A stretch of DNA of 34,337 nucleotides from Peloplasma aerotolerans (GTDB taxonomy: Bacteria > Bacillota_I > Bacilli_A > Acholeplasmatales > Acholeplasmataceae). The DNA lies in NCBI RefSeq assembly GCF_030012175.1, contig NZ_JASCXW010000020.1, positions 1 through 34,337 on the forward strand. Direction: 5' to 3'. Below, in pieces: positions 9,636-16,924 of this stretch; the first letter of the stretch is position 1, and every line of letters begins with the position of its first letter. The notes under the pieces were generated by a model that was given only the letters and a program-made list of their open reading frames with translations, was not told the DNA's origin and did not search any database. A program made the translations under genes and the position numbers.

Positions 9636-9649
9636 CTTTGGAGGTTTAT

Positions 9650-12400
9650 ATGTTCAAAAAATGTTTTATACTTATCTTTTTATTAATGCTTTTTACTTTA
9701 GCTGCATGTAAAAGCAACAATAACCAATCTACACCAAACATAACTGTTCCACATGAGATTACAGATATCATTGGACTTGAAGATATGACCGTTACGAAAA
9801 ACGAATATTTCAATCCCCTTGACAATGTGAAAATATTAAATCAAAATAATGAAGATATCACATATTTAGTTCGTGTAACAGGAAATGTACATTATGGTGT
9901 TCTTGGTGAGTACGAGTTAACTTATCAAATGACTTATGGCGAAGATGAAATTAATCAAACACGGTTGATTACAGTTGATGATGGAACAATCAATAGACCT
10001 ATAAACCCTAGAAACAACATAACTTCTACAATCGTTAATGCTAATGCGGGCTCTTATCGCGTAGGCTCAGCTCCAGAAATTGATCATCCGATTCAACCAC
10101 AACTCCTAAATCCTAACTTATTAGACCAAGCAGTCCCATCTAATGGATGGTGGACTTCACTATTGGCTGCTAATTATGGTGGAGGCAATGGCATATATAC
10201 AAATCCTTTACGATCTGCATTTAGTAATGATGGTGTTGAAATCACAAACCCAGGATCTGGTTTTGTACAATATTGGAATCCTGATGGGTATAACACGATG
10301 GCAAACTTCTCTTTAGCTTTGCCAGATATGCATATAAAAACAACAAATCTTAATTTAGGATATACAACTCATGTGATTGATTACAGTGACACAACTGTCA
10401 AGGTAGCAATGAGAAATACTGGCCAACCACAAGACCAAATGGTAATGACTTACGCACAAGGATCTCCTTTCGTGTTTGCTGAAGTTGCAAAGTCTGATTC
10501 TGCTTACTTAAGACTTGCATCAAATGGAGTTGCAAGTTATGAATATTTTACTGTTGATGGTCAACTGATCAGTGGAAACACATATACAGGAGATGGTATC
10601 GTCATCCGTTTGGTACAAAAACATATTGGATATGAAACCTATAGACCTGCACAAGTTGGACAACCAATTTATGGAGATCGTTATTTCTTGGTGAGTACAC
10701 CTAGTGGATCTTTGTTTAACTTATCAACTGATAACCACCCAAGTTCTTTATTAAACAAGATTAGTATGAACTTAGGCGATGAAAACTATTTTTCAGTTGC
10801 TGCTATAGAATCTTTAACTGAAGCTTCTTTTTATCATCAACATGCTTATACTGCAACACTTAAAGGTGATGTCTCTTATCAAGTTCAACATAAAGATAGC
10901 ATTGTTGAAACCAACTATCATTTATCAACTCAACACTTAAAAGAAAATAATCTTAATGAACCCCTTCAATTTTTAATGCCTCATCATTATCAAAACAGTA
11001 CTCAAGAAGTAACTGATTATAGTTTTAATACTGTCAGAGGAGAATTAAAACTCATAGTAGGATCGCATTTTCAAACAAACCTCTCATTTCATGGTCTTCT
11101 ACCTGCAATGACATATCCTATCAATAATGAATTTAGTACAACCCATATGACTACTTATCTTAATGATTTAGATACTAGAACTGAAATCAATGATCTTACT
11201 AACTTCTTAAACGATGAAGGTCCTTATTGGAATGGTAAAGCAATTTATCCACTATCGCAAGGTATTATCATCGCTGATCAAATTGGTGATGATGCACTAA
11301 AACTCTCGTTTATTTCGAAATTGAGATATGTATTAGCGGACTGGTTTACATATGAATCGGTATCAGATGAACGCTATCTTTACTATAACGAAGCATGGGG
11401 CTCTGTTTATTACTCGAATAATGATTTCAATACTGCAAGTGAACTCAGTGATCATAGTTTTACACATGGTTATTTAATTTATGGAGCCAGTGTATTAGCG
11501 ATGTATGATGAATCGTTTGTCAATGATTATAAAGATATCGTTGAAGTTTTACTAGATGATTATCTATACCCATATAAAGATGACTATGATTTCGCTTATT
11601 TGCGGTCTTTTGATCCTTGGGCAGGTCATACTTGGGCACACGGTTTTGGAACGTTTGCAGAGGGTAATAACGTTGAATCCTCAAGTGAAGCATTGCAGTC
11701 ATGGGTCGGAGGATATTTGTGGGCATTATCTCAAAATGATGTAGACCGTAGAGATGCAGCTATTTATGGTTTTGTAACTGAACTTAATGCAGCAAAAACT
11801 TATATAATGGACTACTCAGAAACTATTTTCCCTGAAAAATATAGCATGTACGCATCTATTGCAGGTATGATTTGGGGTGGTAAATATGATTACGCGACTT
11901 GGTTTGGTGCTAATCCAACATTTATCTATGGTATCCAATGGTTACCCAATGGAGAATATATTTCAAATTATGCGTTAAATGATGATGAAAGAGCACGGTT
12001 AAATCATATATACTCTGACTACTTACTTGCAAAAAATCAAACCATAGATACATGGTTTGCTACCATGTGGAGCGTACAAGCATTAATCAATCCATCAATA
12101 GCCATCAGTCAATTTGATGCTTCTAAAATACTTAATGATGATTATCCAAGTGATTTATCGCAAACTTATTATTTAATCCATAGTTTACAAAGTTATGGAA
12201 AACGTGATACATCATATATTATGGAAATTCATGAACGTGTATCATCATCCATTTACGTGGATAGCTTAGGGGTTGTAAATGCAATGATATGGAATCCAAG
12301 TGATCAGGAACAAACCATTATCTTCAAATCGCCAACTAATCAATCTATTTCCATTACAGTACCTTCTAGAAGTCTAACAACAAATCGACTGTCAAATTAA
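9650..12400 (+). CDS. GH81 endo-beta-1,3-glucanase lipoprotein with N-terminal Ig-like domain
   Basis: A 916-residue surface lipoprotein. Residues 1-20 are a lipoprotein signal ending LFTLAAC, with Cys20 the lipidation site. Residues about 38-110 form an Ig-like/DUF5011-type domain (GVLGEYELTYQMTY, ending LITVDDG). The rest is a glycoside hydrolase family 81 domain, which cuts beta-1,3-glucans such as laminarin. GH81 signatures are clear: VPSNGWWTSLLAANYGG near 160, SDHSFTHGYLIYGAS, and RSFDPWAGHTWAHGFG followed by NNVESSSEALQSWVGGYLWA. The expected catalytic residues are present: Asp601 (acid) and Glu676/Glu680. The reading frame is open to a TTG at 9638, but the ATG at 9650 has TTTGGAGG in front. 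No sugar transporter or other glycosidase lies beside it, which is unusual for such an enzyme. Confidence 0.9.
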   Translation: MFKKCFILIFLLMLFTLAACKSNNNQSTPNITVPHEITDIIGLEDMTVTKNEYFNPLDNVKILNQNNEDITYLVRVTGNVHYGVLGEYELTYQMTYGEDEINQTRLITVDDGTINRPINPRNNITSTIVNANAGSYRVGSAPEIDHPIQPQLLNPNLLDQAVPSNGWWTSLLAANYGGGNGIYTNPLRSAFSNDGVEITNPGSGFVQYWNPDGYNTMANFSLALPDMHIKTTNLNLGYTTHVIDYSDTTVKVAMRNTGQPQDQMVMTYAQGSPFVFAEVAKSDSAYLRLASNGVASYEYFTVDGQLISGNTYTGDGIVIRLVQKHIGYETYRPAQVGQPIYGDRYFLVSTPSGSLFNLSTDNHPSSLLNKISMNLGDENYFSVAAIESLTEASFYHQHAYTATLKGDVSYQVQHKDSIVETNYHLSTQHLKENNLNEPLQFLMPHHYQNSTQEVTDYSFNTVRGELKLIVGSHFQTNLSFHGLLPAMTYPINNEFSTTHMTTYLNDLDTRTEINDLTNFLNDEGPYWNGKAIYPLSQGIIIADQIGDDALKLSFISKLRYVLADWFTYESVSDERYLYYNEAWGSVYYSNNDFNTASELSDHSFTHGYLIYGASVLAMYDESFVNDYKDIVEVLLDDYLYPYKDDYDFAYLRSFDPWAGHTWAHGFGTFAEGNNVESSSEALQSWVGGYLWALSQNDVDRRDAAIYGFVTELNAAKTYIMDYSETIFPEKYSMYASIAGMIWGGKYDYATWFGANPTFIYGIQWLPNGEYISNYALNDDERARLNHIYSDYLLAKNQTIDTWFATMWSVQALINPSIAISQFDASKILNDDYPSDLSQTYYLIHSLQSYGKRDTSYIMEIHERVSSSIYVDSLGVVNAMIWNPSDQEQTIIFKSPTNQSISITVPSRSLTTNRLSN

Positions 12401-12417: not shown

Positions 12418-12456
12418 TCTTTTATTCTCCTAATTAGGAAAATTGGGGTTTTTTTT
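12418..12456 (+). terminator. Probable terminator of the GH81 gene
   Basis: An imperfect stem built around TCCT-AATT-AGGA, extended by T-A and G-U pairs to GGGG, runs into eight T, 18 bases after the stop codon. Confidence 0.6.
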
Positions 12457-12491
12457 GATATATTTGTTTACAATCACATAATTTCTATTTT

Positions 12492-12520
12492 TTGACTATA
12501 CATCAGTTATATGGTATGAT
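12492..12520 (+). promoter_or_regulatory. Strong promoter of the baeRF-like gene or its leader RNA
   Basis: TTGACT (12492-12497), 17 bases, TATGAT (12515-12520), with extended -10 TGG. The predicted start is near 12527. It is one of the best promoters in the window. Confidence 0.8.
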
Positions 12521-12526
12521 TAATTA

Positions 12527-12627
12527 TCATATGGTTGCCTTTAGATAGCAATCGTATTCCAATTATTTTTACTCGCATTTAGCGAATACACCTATCTTTA
12601 GACGACCAAAACAGGTCGGTTTTTTTT
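12527..12627 (+). ncRNA. Structured leader RNA with intrinsic terminator, unknown class
   Basis: From the predicted start to the T run the RNA is about 100 nt. Nested stems are visible: AGATAG (12543-12548) with CTATCT (12592-12597), GTATTC (12554-12559) with GAATAC (12584-12589), and a CGC/GCG apical hairpin. A terminator hairpin CGACC-AAAACA-GGTCG (12603-12618) with eight T follows. A near-leaderless mini-frame ATG GTT GCC TTT AGA TAG (12531-12548) ends exactly at the 5' arm of the outer stem, and GGTTG (12533-12537) can pair with CGACC as an alternative to the terminator. This could be a leader that controls the downstream gene, or a free small RNA. I could not match it to T-box, purine, SAM, fluoride or preQ1 riboswitches. 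Confidence 0.55.
12603..12627 (+). terminator. Intrinsic terminator in the leader of the baeRF-like gene
   Basis: CGACC, a 6-base loop, GGTCG, then G and eight T. It lies 43 bases before the coding start and after a strong promoter, so it should set how much transcription reaches the gene. Confidence 0.75.
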
Positions 12628-12669
12628 AAAAAAAACTTATTTGATGAAATAAGAAAGGACGGTATTTAA

Positions 12670-13818
12670 GTGAAATATAAAATTGTTGACACATTTCCAA
12701 ACGATTTTTTTAACAACAAAAAAGCTCCACTTTTTTCAATTTATCAAGAAACTTCTAGACATCTCACTGAAAATAAGCGCGATGCACTCGTTTTCAAAAA
12801 TTTAATTAAAGAAGTGGAGGGCTCTCTTAGAGAAAAATATGACAAAAAAGAAATAAAACCTTTGATGGAAATGTTTTCTGAGATAGAAAATGCAAGTACT
12901 TTTTGGAGTCATACATATGACGGAATTGCTTTATTTGCATCATTAGATGAATGTATTATCTATAATTTAAAGAAACCCATCAGTACACTTGCAGTTGTTT
13001 CTGACACTTTCCACATCAAACCACTGATTCATTATTTCCAAATTGCTCAGACCTATCAAATTCTTGATTTAGATGCACATTCATTTCAATTATTCGAAGG
13101 AACACCTTACCATATTGAGAAAATAGAGTTAAGCGATTCCATACAGACTACTAAGGATGAGATACTTGGTACAGAGAAAACAGATCCCTATCAAACACAT
13201 GGTACATATGGAGGTTCATCAGGAAAATCAACATTCCACGGACATGGTGGAAAAAAAGCTGAAGACGAAATTGATTTAGAAAGATTTTTTAGACAAGTCG
13301 ATTTAATCATTGATGAGAATATTTCAAAAAAATCTAAATGTCCTTTAATACTTCTTGCTCCAACTGAATATCACGCTTTATTTTTAGAAATGTCTAATAA
13401 TCTGTTTTTAGAACCAAAAGCGATATCAGGATCATATGATACACTCGGTAAAGAAGAAACTAAAAAACAAATAGAGTTGCTTAATATAGAAAGATTAAAT
13501 CAAAAAACTGAAAAACTGATTAATCAGTATCACCAACTGAGACCAAGCGAAAAAAGTTCTGATCAACTCATAGAAATTATATCAGCTGTAATAGATGGCA
13601 GAGTTGAAACGCTTTTTATCGAATTGGATAAAATCATTCCAGGTCATATTGATTTAGTTAATAAAAAGATGAAAACGAAAGATTTAGCAAATCCTGAGAT
13701 AGACGATATACTAGACGATTTAGCGCAATACACACTAGAAAAAAATGGTCATGTTTATATCTTAAGTAAAGAAGATATGCCAACCGAGTCTGGTGCTGCA
13801 GCAATTTACAGATATTAA
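12670..13818 (+). CDS. baeRF-like protein (bacterial archaeo-eukaryotic release-factor family)
   Basis: A 382-residue protein that resembles the bacterial relatives of eRF1/Pelota called baeRF, best fitting families such as baeRF3. Features are a central HGTYGGSSGKSTFHGHGGKK (177-196), where eRF1-like proteins have their Gly-rich loop, then the EIDLERFFRQVDLII and LILLAPTEYHALFLEMS core, and a C-terminal L7Ae-like part (DDLAQYTLEKNGHVYILSKEDMP, then SGAAAIYRY at the end). Relatives are proposed to act on ribosomes, in rescue or in ribosome-targeting conflict systems; none of this is shown for this protein. Translation starts at GTG with AAAGGACGG upstream. It stands alone between a regulated-looking leader and a strong terminator. 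Confidence 0.7.
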   Translation: MKYKIVDTFPNDFFNNKKAPLFSIYQETSRHLTENKRDALVFKNLIKEVEGSLREKYDKKEIKPLMEMFSEIENASTFWSHTYDGIALFASLDECIIYNLKKPISTLAVVSDTFHIKPLIHYFQIAQTYQILDLDAHSFQLFEGTPYHIEKIELSDSIQTTKDEILGTEKTDPYQTHGTYGGSSGKSTFHGHGGKKAEDEIDLERFFRQVDLIIDENISKKSKCPLILLAPTEYHALFLEMSNNLFLEPKAISGSYDTLGKEETKKQIELLNIERLNQKTEKLINQYHQLRPSEKSSDQLIEIISAVIDGRVETLFIELDKIIPGHIDLVNKKMKTKDLANPEIDDILDDLAQYTLEKNGHVYILSKEDMPTESGAAAIYRY

Positions 13819-13906: not shown

Positions 13907-15214
13907 ATGGACCCTATTTTACTCAAATATAAGTACAGAGACATCTTGGCCATTGCTGCGATGCAGGGTAAGGATGTCCATGAGAATGAACTGAATAAAC
14001 TTTCAAACCTCAAAGCGAATCGAGAGACTAAACTCACGATTCAGTCCATCTTTCAAACCTATTGGCCGTTATTTAAACCTTTGTTTATCGAAAGGCTTAG
14101 ACCTGCCATCATCTCTAATGTTGAAAAGATGATTGATTGTAAAAATTTAGCCAAAGGTCATCTTTTTTTTGAGTGTCCTTCTTGTGATCAGTATTACTTA
14201 CAAGGACTTTCTTGTCACTCAAGGTTTTGTGTCTCCTGTAATCAACGCTATCGTGAAAAGCGAACACTTGCCGTTCAGTCAAAACTTTTAGATGTTCCTC
14301 ATCGTCACTTTGTCTTTTCCATAGCTAGAGAACTTAGGGATTATTTTAGAATTTATCGCGGTCTCTTTGATGTGCTCTTTTCTTCTGTTAATGAAGCACT
14401 TCAAGCACTTGTCTTTTCATCCAAGATTGCTGTAAAAGACGACCGTAGACTCGGCCTCATCGCCTTTTTACATACCTTTGGACGTGATCTCAAATTCAAT
14501 CCTCACATCCATGTCCTCGTTGCCGAAAGAACGCTTGATATTCATCAAAAGATGCGAAAGTTTTCTTATTTTCATTTTGAGAAACTCAGGCTCCACTTTC
14601 AACTCGCTTTGCTTAGAAATATCTCAAATTATTTGAAAGTAAACGCTCCTAAAGATGTCTATCATCACTTCAATCGTTTGAGAACCTTTCTTATCGCTAA
14701 ATATAAGAAAGGATTCTATGCGCACGGTCCTCAACTCAAGGACTATGGTATCCTCAACTCTGCGAAAAAGGTTTCTGATTATATCACCCGCTACGCTTCT
14801 CGTCCTGCTATTTCTGAGGAAAGAATTGTATCGCTTGATCCTTCCAATCATCATATCACATGGTTTTACGATCCCCATGAGGATGACCATAAATCCAAAG
14901 ATGACACCACCTATCTTGGTAGGCAGACTATCACCGAGCATGTCTTTCGCTTCATCGCTAAACTCATCATTCACATTCATGATCGTAACTTCCACACCAT
15001 TCGCTATTTTGGTTTCTATGCCAATAAATCCTCAAAGTCTAAATCTTCCTTCAAAAAACTGCTTTCCTCTGCTCATATTAAACTTAAACGCTCAAGACTA
15101 AACTGGCTCTTTATGTTAAAATCTATTTATAAGTACCATCCCATTTTATGTTCATGTGGCCACACCATGAGACTCAATTTAGATTTCTCTTACTTTAGAG
15201 ATCCTGGAGGTTAA
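13907..15214 (+). CDS. IS91-family HUH transposase
   Basis: A 435-residue rolling-circle transposase. Residues 90-111 hold the zinc-binding N-terminal motif (CPSCDQYYLQGLSCHSRFC). The HUH metal motif is NPHIHVLVAE, with His200 and His202. The tyrosine motif is YITRY (Tyr292 and Tyr296, the YxxxY spacing of Y2 enzymes). The C-terminus has a second Cys pair in LCSCGHTMRL. All key residues are present and the frame is intact, so it may be active. No good ribosome binding site stands before the ATG at 13907; TATAAT lies 16 bases upstream. Its last two codons (GGA GGT) form the ribosome binding site of the next gene, so the two are coupled. Confidence 0.88.
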   Translation: MDPILLKYKYRDILAIAAMQGKDVHENELNKLSNLKANRETKLTIQSIFQTYWPLFKPLFIERLRPAIISNVEKMIDCKNLAKGHLFFECPSCDQYYLQGLSCHSRFCVSCNQRYREKRTLAVQSKLLDVPHRHFVFSIARELRDYFRIYRGLFDVLFSSVNEALQALVFSSKIAVKDDRRLGLIAFLHTFGRDLKFNPHIHVLVAERTLDIHQKMRKFSYFHFEKLRLHFQLALLRNISNYLKVNAPKDVYHHFNRLRTFLIAKYKKGFYAHGPQLKDYGILNSAKKVSDYITRYASRPAISEERIVSLDPSNHHITWFYDPHEDDHKSKDDTTYLGRQTITEHVFRFIAKLIIHIHDRNFHTIRYFGFYANKSSKSKSSFKKLLSSAHIKLKRSRLNWLFMLKSIYKYHPILCSCGHTMRLNLDFSYFRDPGG

Positions 15215-15694: not shown

Positions 15695-16924
15695 TTATCC
15701 GATAAAAACTTGTTTTAAAATTGATAATGCCCAATCAATTTCTGATTCTTTAATAATAAGTGGTGGGGCTAAACGAATCGTATGTTCATGCGTTTCTTTA
15801 GCCAATAAGCCAAGCTCTTTTAATTGCTCTGTATACTTTCTTGCTTTTCCTGCTTCATCTGTTAACTGAATCGCAATAAATAATCCTTTACCTCGAATTT
15901 CTTTAAACAAAGGTGAGTTGATTTCTTTTATGCCCTCAAGGAAATATTTCCCTAATTTTTCTGAGCGCTCAGCTAATGCTTCATCAATTAAGACATCTAG
16001 TGAAGCCTCACCAACTGCACAAGCTAGTGGGTTTCCTCCAAATGTACTTCCATGTGAACCTGGAGTAATCACATCCATCACAGCTTTACTTGATAACGCA
16101 GCAGATACAGGCATAACCCCGCCACCTAATGCTTTACCAACTAATAAAATATCTGGTTTAATATCATCATGCATAAAACAAAACATTTTACCAGTTCTGC
16201 AAAAGCCTGTTTGGATTTCATCAGTAATTAATAGTATATTATGCTTAGTGCAAATTTCACGAACTTTTTTTAAATATCCTGCATCAGGAATTATAACGCC
16301 TGCTTCACCTTGAATTGGCTCAACTAGGAATGCAATCGTATTTGGTGTAATGGCTTTTTCCAATGCGTTTGTATTATTGAAAGGAATATTTACAAACCCT
16401 GGTGTAAATGGACCGAAATCTTCATTTGCTCCTGGGTCTGTTGAAAAACCAACAATGGTTGTTGTTCTTCCATGGAAATTATCATTACATGTAATGATTT
16501 CCCCTTGGTTAACAGGAACTTTTTTTATTCTATATCCCCATCTTCTAGCAATTTTAATACCTGTTTCAACAGCTTCTGCACCTGTATTCATTGGTAATGC
16601 AACTTCCATACCAGATACATCGCATAACTTTTGCAAAAAGGATCCTAAGCGATCATTATAAAATGCTCTTGATGTTAATGTCACAGACTTCATTTGCTTT
16701 TTAACAGCTTTAATAATTTTAGGATGAAGGTGTCCTTGATTAACTGCTGAATAAGCAGATAAACAGTCTAAATATTTTTTCCCTTCAGGATCCCACACCC
16801 AAACCCCCTTAGCACGTTTAATAACAACAGGAATTGGCTTATAATTTTTTGCACCATATTTGGCTTCGATATCCATATATGCTTTTGAAGATAGCATTTT
16901 GTTGTGTAAGATTTGAATCAACAA
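15695..16924 (-). CDS. rocD: Ornithine aminotransferase
   Basis: A 409-residue class III PLP aminotransferase that moves the delta-amino group of ornithine to 2-oxoglutarate, giving glutamate semialdehyde and glutamate. RocD hallmarks are YGAKNYKPIPVVI, LDCLSAYSAVNQGHLHPKI, NTGAEAVETGIKIAR, EPIQGEAGVIIP, and DEIQTGFCRTGK. The PLP lysine is in LLVGKALGGG (about residue 264), and GSHGSTFGGNPLACAV follows. The start chosen is TTG at 16922-16924, because GAAAGGAG lies seven bases before it; an in-frame ATG nine codons later has no binding site. With glutamate dehydrogenase in the same window it fits arginine/ornithine catabolism. Its promoter and leader hairpin lie at 17000-17073. Confidence 0.93.
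   Translation of the reverse strand: MLIQILHNKMLSSKAYMDIEAKYGAKNYKPIPVVIKRAKGVWVWDPEGKKYLDCLSAYSAVNQGHLHPKIIKAVKKQMKSVTLTSRAFYNDRLGSFLQKLCDVSGMEVALPMNTGAEAVETGIKIARRWGYRIKKVPVNQGEIITCNDNFHGRTTTIVGFSTDPGANEDFGPFTPGFVNIPFNNTNALEKAITPNTIAFLVEPIQGEAGVIIPDAGYLKKVREICTKHNILLITDEIQTGFCRTGKMFCFMHDDIKPDILLVGKALGGGVMPVSAALSSKAVMDVITPGSHGSTFGGNPLACAVGEASLDVLIDEALAERSEKLGKYFLEGIKEINSPLFKEIRGKGLFIAIQLTDEAGKARKYTEQLKELGLLAKETHEHTIRLAPPLIIKESEIDWALSILKQVFIG

Follow-up and report, generated by a model that had tools for sequence, protein, structure and literature searches.

The gene for a Balon-type ribosome hibernation factor homologue in Peloplasma aerotolerans is probably preceded by a transcription attenuator controlling the amount of factor made. 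In the window (the whole 34,337-nt stretch of contig NZ_JASCXW010000020.1 that was analyzed), a leader of ~100 nt lies between the promoter and the gene start at 12670 and ends in an intrinsic terminator. The leader RNA is predicted to have mutually exclusive folds: a 5′ hairpin (HP1), a long-range antiterminator, and the terminator. The leader occurs at all four close homologue loci, namely the window and three others at 70–81% protein identity (G004, G019, and G075), which together represent two genera and three gene neighborhoods. The features are as follows.

12492–12520, plus strand: promoter TTGACT-17-TATGAT with TG before the -10 (extended -10); 10/12 consensus matches, aligned equivalents in G004, G019, and G075.
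12526–12528, plus strand: predicted transcription start, 6–8 nt past the -10, placed by promoter spacing.
12529–12538, plus strand: predicted 5′ arm of HP1 (anti-antiterminator), from the minimum free energy (MFE) fold of the full leader, with its pairs counted.
12531–12548, plus strand: near-leaderless mini-ORF ATG GTT GCC TTT AGA TAG (MVAFR*); AUG in 4/4 leaders, early stop in 3/4.
12532–12537, plus strand: antiterminator arm 1a, UGGUUG, partner 12603–12608; predicted pairing and leader alignment.
12543–12548, plus strand: antiterminator arm 1b, AGAUAG, largely within the HP1 loop, predicted partner 12592–12597; a G-C pair becomes A-U in G075.
12548–12557, plus strand: predicted 3′ arm of HP1 (MFE fold); a C-G pair becomes U-A in G075.
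12554–12559, plus strand: antiterminator arm 1c, GUAUUC, predicted partner 12584–12589; weak in G075.
12584–12589, plus strand: antiterminator arm 2c, GAAUAC; predicted pairing and leader alignment.
12592–12597, plus strand: antiterminator arm 2b, CUAUCU; predicted pairing and leader alignment.
12603–12608, plus strand: antiterminator arm 2a, CGACCA, of which CGACC doubles as the terminator 5′ arm; predicted pairing and leader alignment.
12603–12627, plus strand: intrinsic terminator CGACC-AAAACA-GGTCG plus T-run; stem invariant in 4/4 leaders.
12670–13818, plus strand: gene for the Balon-type (baeRF) ribosome hibernation factor homologue, 382 aa, GTG start; Pfam, NCBIfam, PDB profile, and Foldseek matches.

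The arrangement of leader and terminator described in the first-pass annotation of this DNA is real: the promoter, stems, mini-frame, and terminator (CGACC 12603–12607, GGTCG 12614–12618, T-run 12620–12627) are all present base for base in the window. The two nested 6-bp stems of that description are AGATAG (12543–12548) with CTATCT (12592–12597), and GTATTC (12554–12559) with GAATAC (12584–12589). A separate promoter after the terminator had been named as an observation that would count against regulation by the leader; a promoter-like site was sought between the terminator and 12670 and none was found, the next plus-strand match being at 13684.

The gene product had been described as related to eRF1, and its sequence and fold now identify it as a Balon-type hibernation factor homologue. 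Pfam matches are to baeRF_family3, 6, and 7, and the sole NCBIfam match is NF052287 (AOC03_06830 family ribosome hibernation factor; E 7.1e-43); because the score of 147.4 bits is below the cutoff of 330, the protein is classed by sequence as a family homologue rather than as an NF052287 equivalog. A profile of 13 homologues found one sequence in the PDB, that of 8rd8, 8rdv, and 8rdw (residues 13–382, E 1.3e-25), which are Balon structures according to the data section of PMC10901736. For an AlphaFold2 model with a mean pLDDT of 85, the top six Foldseek matches were three Psychrobacter Balon chains and three mycobacterial Balon-family chains. The protein lacks the GGQ and NIKS motifs, as is likewise described for Balon (PMC10901736). 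It is on these database, profile, and fold matches, and on the missing motifs, that the assignment to the Balon family rests. Compared with Balon of Psychrobacter urativorans (PMC10901736), the likeness is a near-full-length match in profile and fold, whereas the difference lies in the structural alignments, which give only 18–19% identity to the three Psychrobacter chains, and in the score under the NCBIfam equivalog cutoff. By analogy, the protein would have ribosome-hibernation activity; members of the Balon family are described as induced by cold, heat, stationary phase, and hypoxia (PMC10901736). A PHROGs search returned no family.

The leader is confined to close relatives of the gene in the genomes compared. 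Among 160 genomes of the order, 13 carry a protein that matches with an E-value no higher than 1e-40: the window, G004 (81% identity), G075 (72%), G019 (70%), and nine at 40–45%. A draw of 395 genomes from the class gave 14 more homologues at 32–39% identity, and a further close homologue was not found in 392 genomes drawn from the phylum. The four leader-bearing homologues form one group in the protein tree (support 100/99); G075 belongs to a different genus from that of the window. Upstream of the 23 more distant homologues, 22 of which were examined (L036 starts inside the gene and was dropped), the leader was found in 0/22, with neither ATGGTYG nor CGACC-N3-9-GGTCG within 220 nt. Terminator matches at L029, L032, and L035 precede a likely -10 and, by eye, look like the ends of upstream genes. 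Homologues without the leader (L004, L005, L007, L008, and L022) have a different upstream motif around GTATACTAGAGGTA, ~60–110 nt before the start codon, which is possibly another promoter type for the hibernation-factor gene. Across 20 genomes of the window's genus the homologue is patchy (7/20, one match per genome): three genomes have the leader type and four the distant type. Neither a relative nor the leader pattern was found in viral contigs, and the plasmid search gave 14 records, each below 60% identity.

The leader can also be found independently of the protein. A covariance model of three leaders (R1), searched against 88 genomes of the family without using the protein, recovered the G075 leader with E 6.5e-8, immediately before the homologue. 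Beyond the four leaders, R1 in these 88 genomes and a second model (R2) in the 160 genomes of the order and the 395 of the class yielded only eight matches, with E of 0.0055–0.52. Seven of the eight were inspected (L017 was left out) and rejected as further leaders: L039 and L042–L044 overlap open frames longer than 80 codons and have a different fold, and L014–L016 are without the leader layout by eye. An Rfam search, which the first-pass annotation had proposed, returned no known leader or riboswitch for the window, there being 0 matches at the gathering score in the whole window and, in a permissive search of 12440–12700, three matches at E 2.6–4.6, all far under the cutoff.

Identity to the window is 93% (G004), 72% (G019), and 67% (G075) in the leader, above that at the fourfold-degenerate sites of the gene (50%, 35%, and 35%, respectively). 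The stretch from terminator to start codon is 62%, 53%, and 27% identical, respectively, and the short stretch preceding the -35 is at most 20% identical. By eye, the window and G004 share the upstream gene; in G019 the leader lies opposite an Lgt-like gene (name by eye), and in G075 beside another gene. The window itself encodes, at 9638–12400 (plus strand), a glycosyl hydrolase of GH81 type whose N-terminus is lipoprotein-like (by eye); a match to a surface Ig-like domain in it falls just under cutoff. An IS91-family transposase gene (13907–15214, plus strand) separates the hibernation-factor gene from an aminotransferase gene (15695–16924); since the matching aminotransferase end adjoins the hibernation-factor homologue in G004 (by eye), an IS91-family element was probably inserted in the window.

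Loss of the stems upstream of homologues had been named as another observation that would count against the leader; instead, the stems are kept at all four close homologues. The alignment that the first-pass annotation had suggested for covariation gave a divided answer. In its favor, window C12538, G12548, and C12592 are U, A, and U in G075, so that one column keeps its pair in both HP1 and the antiterminator. In G019, UGGUUG becomes UGGUCG, turning a U-G pair with CGACCA into C-G, and the middle antiterminator helix retains six pairs via slipping within AUAGAUAG. Against it, the covariation counts are not above those of shuffles, being equaled in 120/500 for the antiterminator and 132/500 for HP1 plus terminator, which for four sequences is not significant. 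In the alignment, HP1 contains two mismatched pairs in G019 and three in G075, whose own 5′ fold is a shifted hairpin, and antiterminator helix 3 (1c:2c) is poor in G075.

The predicted folds compete for the same bases. HP1, a 10-bp 5′ hairpin (12529–12538 with 12548–12557) missed by the first-pass annotation, is part of the MFE fold of the full leader (-22.2 kcal/mol, z -3.49). It has bases 12532–12537, 12548, and 12554–12557 in common with the antiterminator, which in turn has 12603–12607 in common with the terminator. The pairing that had been proposed between GGTTG and the CGACC arm of the terminator is indeed possible (TGGTTG 12532–12537 with CGACCA 12603–12608) and is retained in 4/4 leaders; the outer arm UGGUUG lies ~6–11 nt from the predicted start. 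In RNA without the terminator 3′ arm, the predicted probability of the 1a:2a antiterminator pairing is 1.00, 0.99, 1.00, and 1.00 (window, G004, G019, and G075), and the observed sequestration of CGACC was matched by 0, 2, 3, and 2 of 500 dinucleotide shuffles, respectively. When a similar sequestration measure was applied to the 75 nt upstream of each of 77 terminator-like sites across the compared DNA, 4 sites reached a probability of at least 0.99, exactly the four leaders; the best of the other 73 was 0.919. By prediction and conservation, the antiterminator is exclusive with the terminator in 4/4 leaders; the anti-antiterminator HP1 is predicted for the window and for G004, with imperfections in G019 and an altered form in G075. 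A U/C-rich unpaired stretch between arms 1c and 2c (12560–12580 in the window), kept in 4/4 leaders, might serve for polymerase pausing or for protein binding.

In equilibrium folds of the growing RNA, the 5′ hairpin forms first, the antiterminator forms at ~nt 80–88 (0.99–1.00 at nt 80), and the terminator appears only from nt 88–92. For the complete RNA without a ribosome, the equilibrium probability of the terminator is 0.97 in the window, 0.99 in G004, 0.02 in G019, and 0.59 in G075; that is, the window and G004 prefer the terminator, G019 stays in the antiterminator, and G075 is split. Because the full-length equilibrium depends on the species, in the window and G004 an ON state without a ribosome would depend on the kinetics of folding. 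When the first 8 nt, starting at the base equivalent to 12529, are masked, the predicted probability that CGACC is held upstream falls from 0.99–1.00 to 0.06, 0.07, 0.12, and 0.18 in the four leaders, and masking the 5′ 12–30 nt gives a predicted terminator probability of 0.97–1.00 in 4/4. As the 8-nt mask frees the terminator arm in 4/4 predictions, a ribosome at the leader AUG should switch the gene OFF; a bound ribosome is therefore predicted by these models to favor termination.

The mini-frame that the first-pass annotation had marked at 12531–12548 is present, and its AUG occurs in 4/4 leaders, 10–11 nt past the -10; its early stop, however, is lost in G075 (kept in 3/4). The products are MVAFR*, MVAYR*, and MVAS*, and in G075 the frame runs 16 codons to UAA (by eye). 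On the alignment, the AUG is better supported than the early stop. The hairpin loop of G075 is shorter, by one base compared with G004 and two compared with G019, which puts the early stop out of frame and leaves the main antiterminator pairings in place; from this, the structure rather than the exact mini-frame looks to be under selection. A Shine–Dalgarno site of its own would not fit before the mini-ORF in any of the four leaders, given only 3–5 nt between the predicted start and the AUG. Leaderless initiation is plausible in the window's group: PMC4014445 puts the average share of leaderless mRNAs in Mollicutes at 18%, with initiation on 70S ribosomes.

These elements suggest the following sequence of events. 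RNA polymerase would start at ~12526–12528 and make HP1 first. As CGACC emerges, the 5′-terminal UGGUUG could be freed from HP1 to pair with CGACC, and the helices AGAUAG:CUAUCU and GUAUUC:GAAUAC would zip up along with this pairing; AGAUAG, displayed in the HP1 loop, could serve as a toehold. With the antiterminator formed, the polymerase would read into the hibernation-factor gene. If the first ~8–12 nt were occupied, the antiterminator would be blocked, the terminator would form, and the gene would be off. The likeliest occupant would be a ribosome initiating at the AUG 3–5 nt from the 5′ end, such that the factor would be shut off while ribosomes are active and made when initiation at the leader AUG becomes rare. 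That the 5′ end of the message senses ribosome activity in this manner, with an initiating ribosome masking the antiterminator arm and a fall in initiation from any cause turning the factor on, we put forward tentatively, as a possibility and not as the probable case. The interpretation in the first-pass annotation is therefore partly supported: a conserved leader with exclusive terminator and antiterminator before an eRF1-related gene was borne out, and the ribosome as the trigger is a conjecture.

One parallel is with the trp-type attenuators of amino-acid operons, in which the position of a ribosome on a short leader ORF chooses between exclusive folds, as it would here. In those attenuators, as predicted here, a ribosome that covers the antiterminator arm causes termination. 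The present leader differs in being without a run of regulatory codons and without an amino-acid biosynthesis gene, and in that its untranslated state is predicted to be ON, not OFF. Another parallel is the vmlR leader of Bacillus subtilis, in which a short-uORF anti-antiterminator hairpin, an antiterminator, and a terminator precede the gene of a ribosome-acting factor (PMC9226507); the cplR leader is grouped with it (PMC10201436). It is unlikely, however, that the leader is a drug-inducible attenuator of this type, in which an antibiotic-stalled ribosome on the mini-ORF would open HP1 and turn the gene ON. The layout is the same, and for vmlR, too, the mini-ORF is described as lying within the first hairpin (PMC9226507); the known uORFs are equally short (MIN, MRI, MAGN; PMC10201436). 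Yet the antiterminator here needs the 5′ arm of HP1, which a stalled ribosome would cover, and blocking 12–30 nt favors the terminator in all four leaders as given above; so while ribosome stalling leads to readthrough in vmlR (PMC9226507), occupancy of the 5′ end is predicted to lead to termination here. Furthermore, the vmlR uORF has a predicted Shine–Dalgarno site, for which the 3–5 nt before the present AUG leave no room, and the early stop is missing in G075.

Control of attenuators by proteins or ligands is common. Binding of such a regulator to HP1 or the antiterminator, for example of the hibernation factor or of some other RNA-binding protein, with the AUG being incidental, is a doubtful explanation that nevertheless fits the better conservation of the structure than of the mini-frame, particularly as UGGUUG is required for pairing and would alone conserve most of AUGGU. 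It fits less well with the lack of an Rfam match above cutoff in the window, and with the A of the AUG, which is retained in G075 though its HP1 partner is lost. We consider it quite unlikely that the terminator is constitutive and partial, setting a low basal level, or that the ~100-nt leader RNA is released as an sRNA, with the alternative folds as a by-product. A terminated RNA would arise in either case, and the full-length equilibrium of the window and G004 favors the terminator, but all four leaders retain the antiterminator pairing at a strength equaled by none of the other 73 terminator-like sites, and it is preserved through compensation and slippage. That the RNA acts as a thermometer in cold or heat shock is highly improbable: Balon-family genes are temperature-induced elsewhere, such as B. 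subtilis YocB by heat and cold shock (PMC10901736), but the predicted terminator probability is nearly flat from 5 to 50 °C in 3/4 leaders, falling from 0.96 to 0.50 in G075.

Attenuators that combine a terminator, an antiterminator, and an anti-antiterminator are already known; the present leader is without an Rfam match, has an antiterminator arm at the 5′ terminus, and precedes an unusual target gene. In the full-text literature searched, as judged by titles and the beginnings of abstracts and with most subscription papers and bioRxiv preprints outside its coverage, RNA attenuation of a Balon-family gene was not evident. As a compact switch of ~100 nt, the leader could link the rate at which translation initiates to production of a ribosome-silencing protein. 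If ribosome sensing at the 5′ end holds true, it would connect idle translation with ribosome dormancy through a feedback made of RNA alone, its logic inverted relative to drug-inducible attenuators; the inverted sign would suit a factor that is needed when translation stops. Mini-ORF attenuators would then extend from drug resistance to dormancy, with their usual sign reversed.
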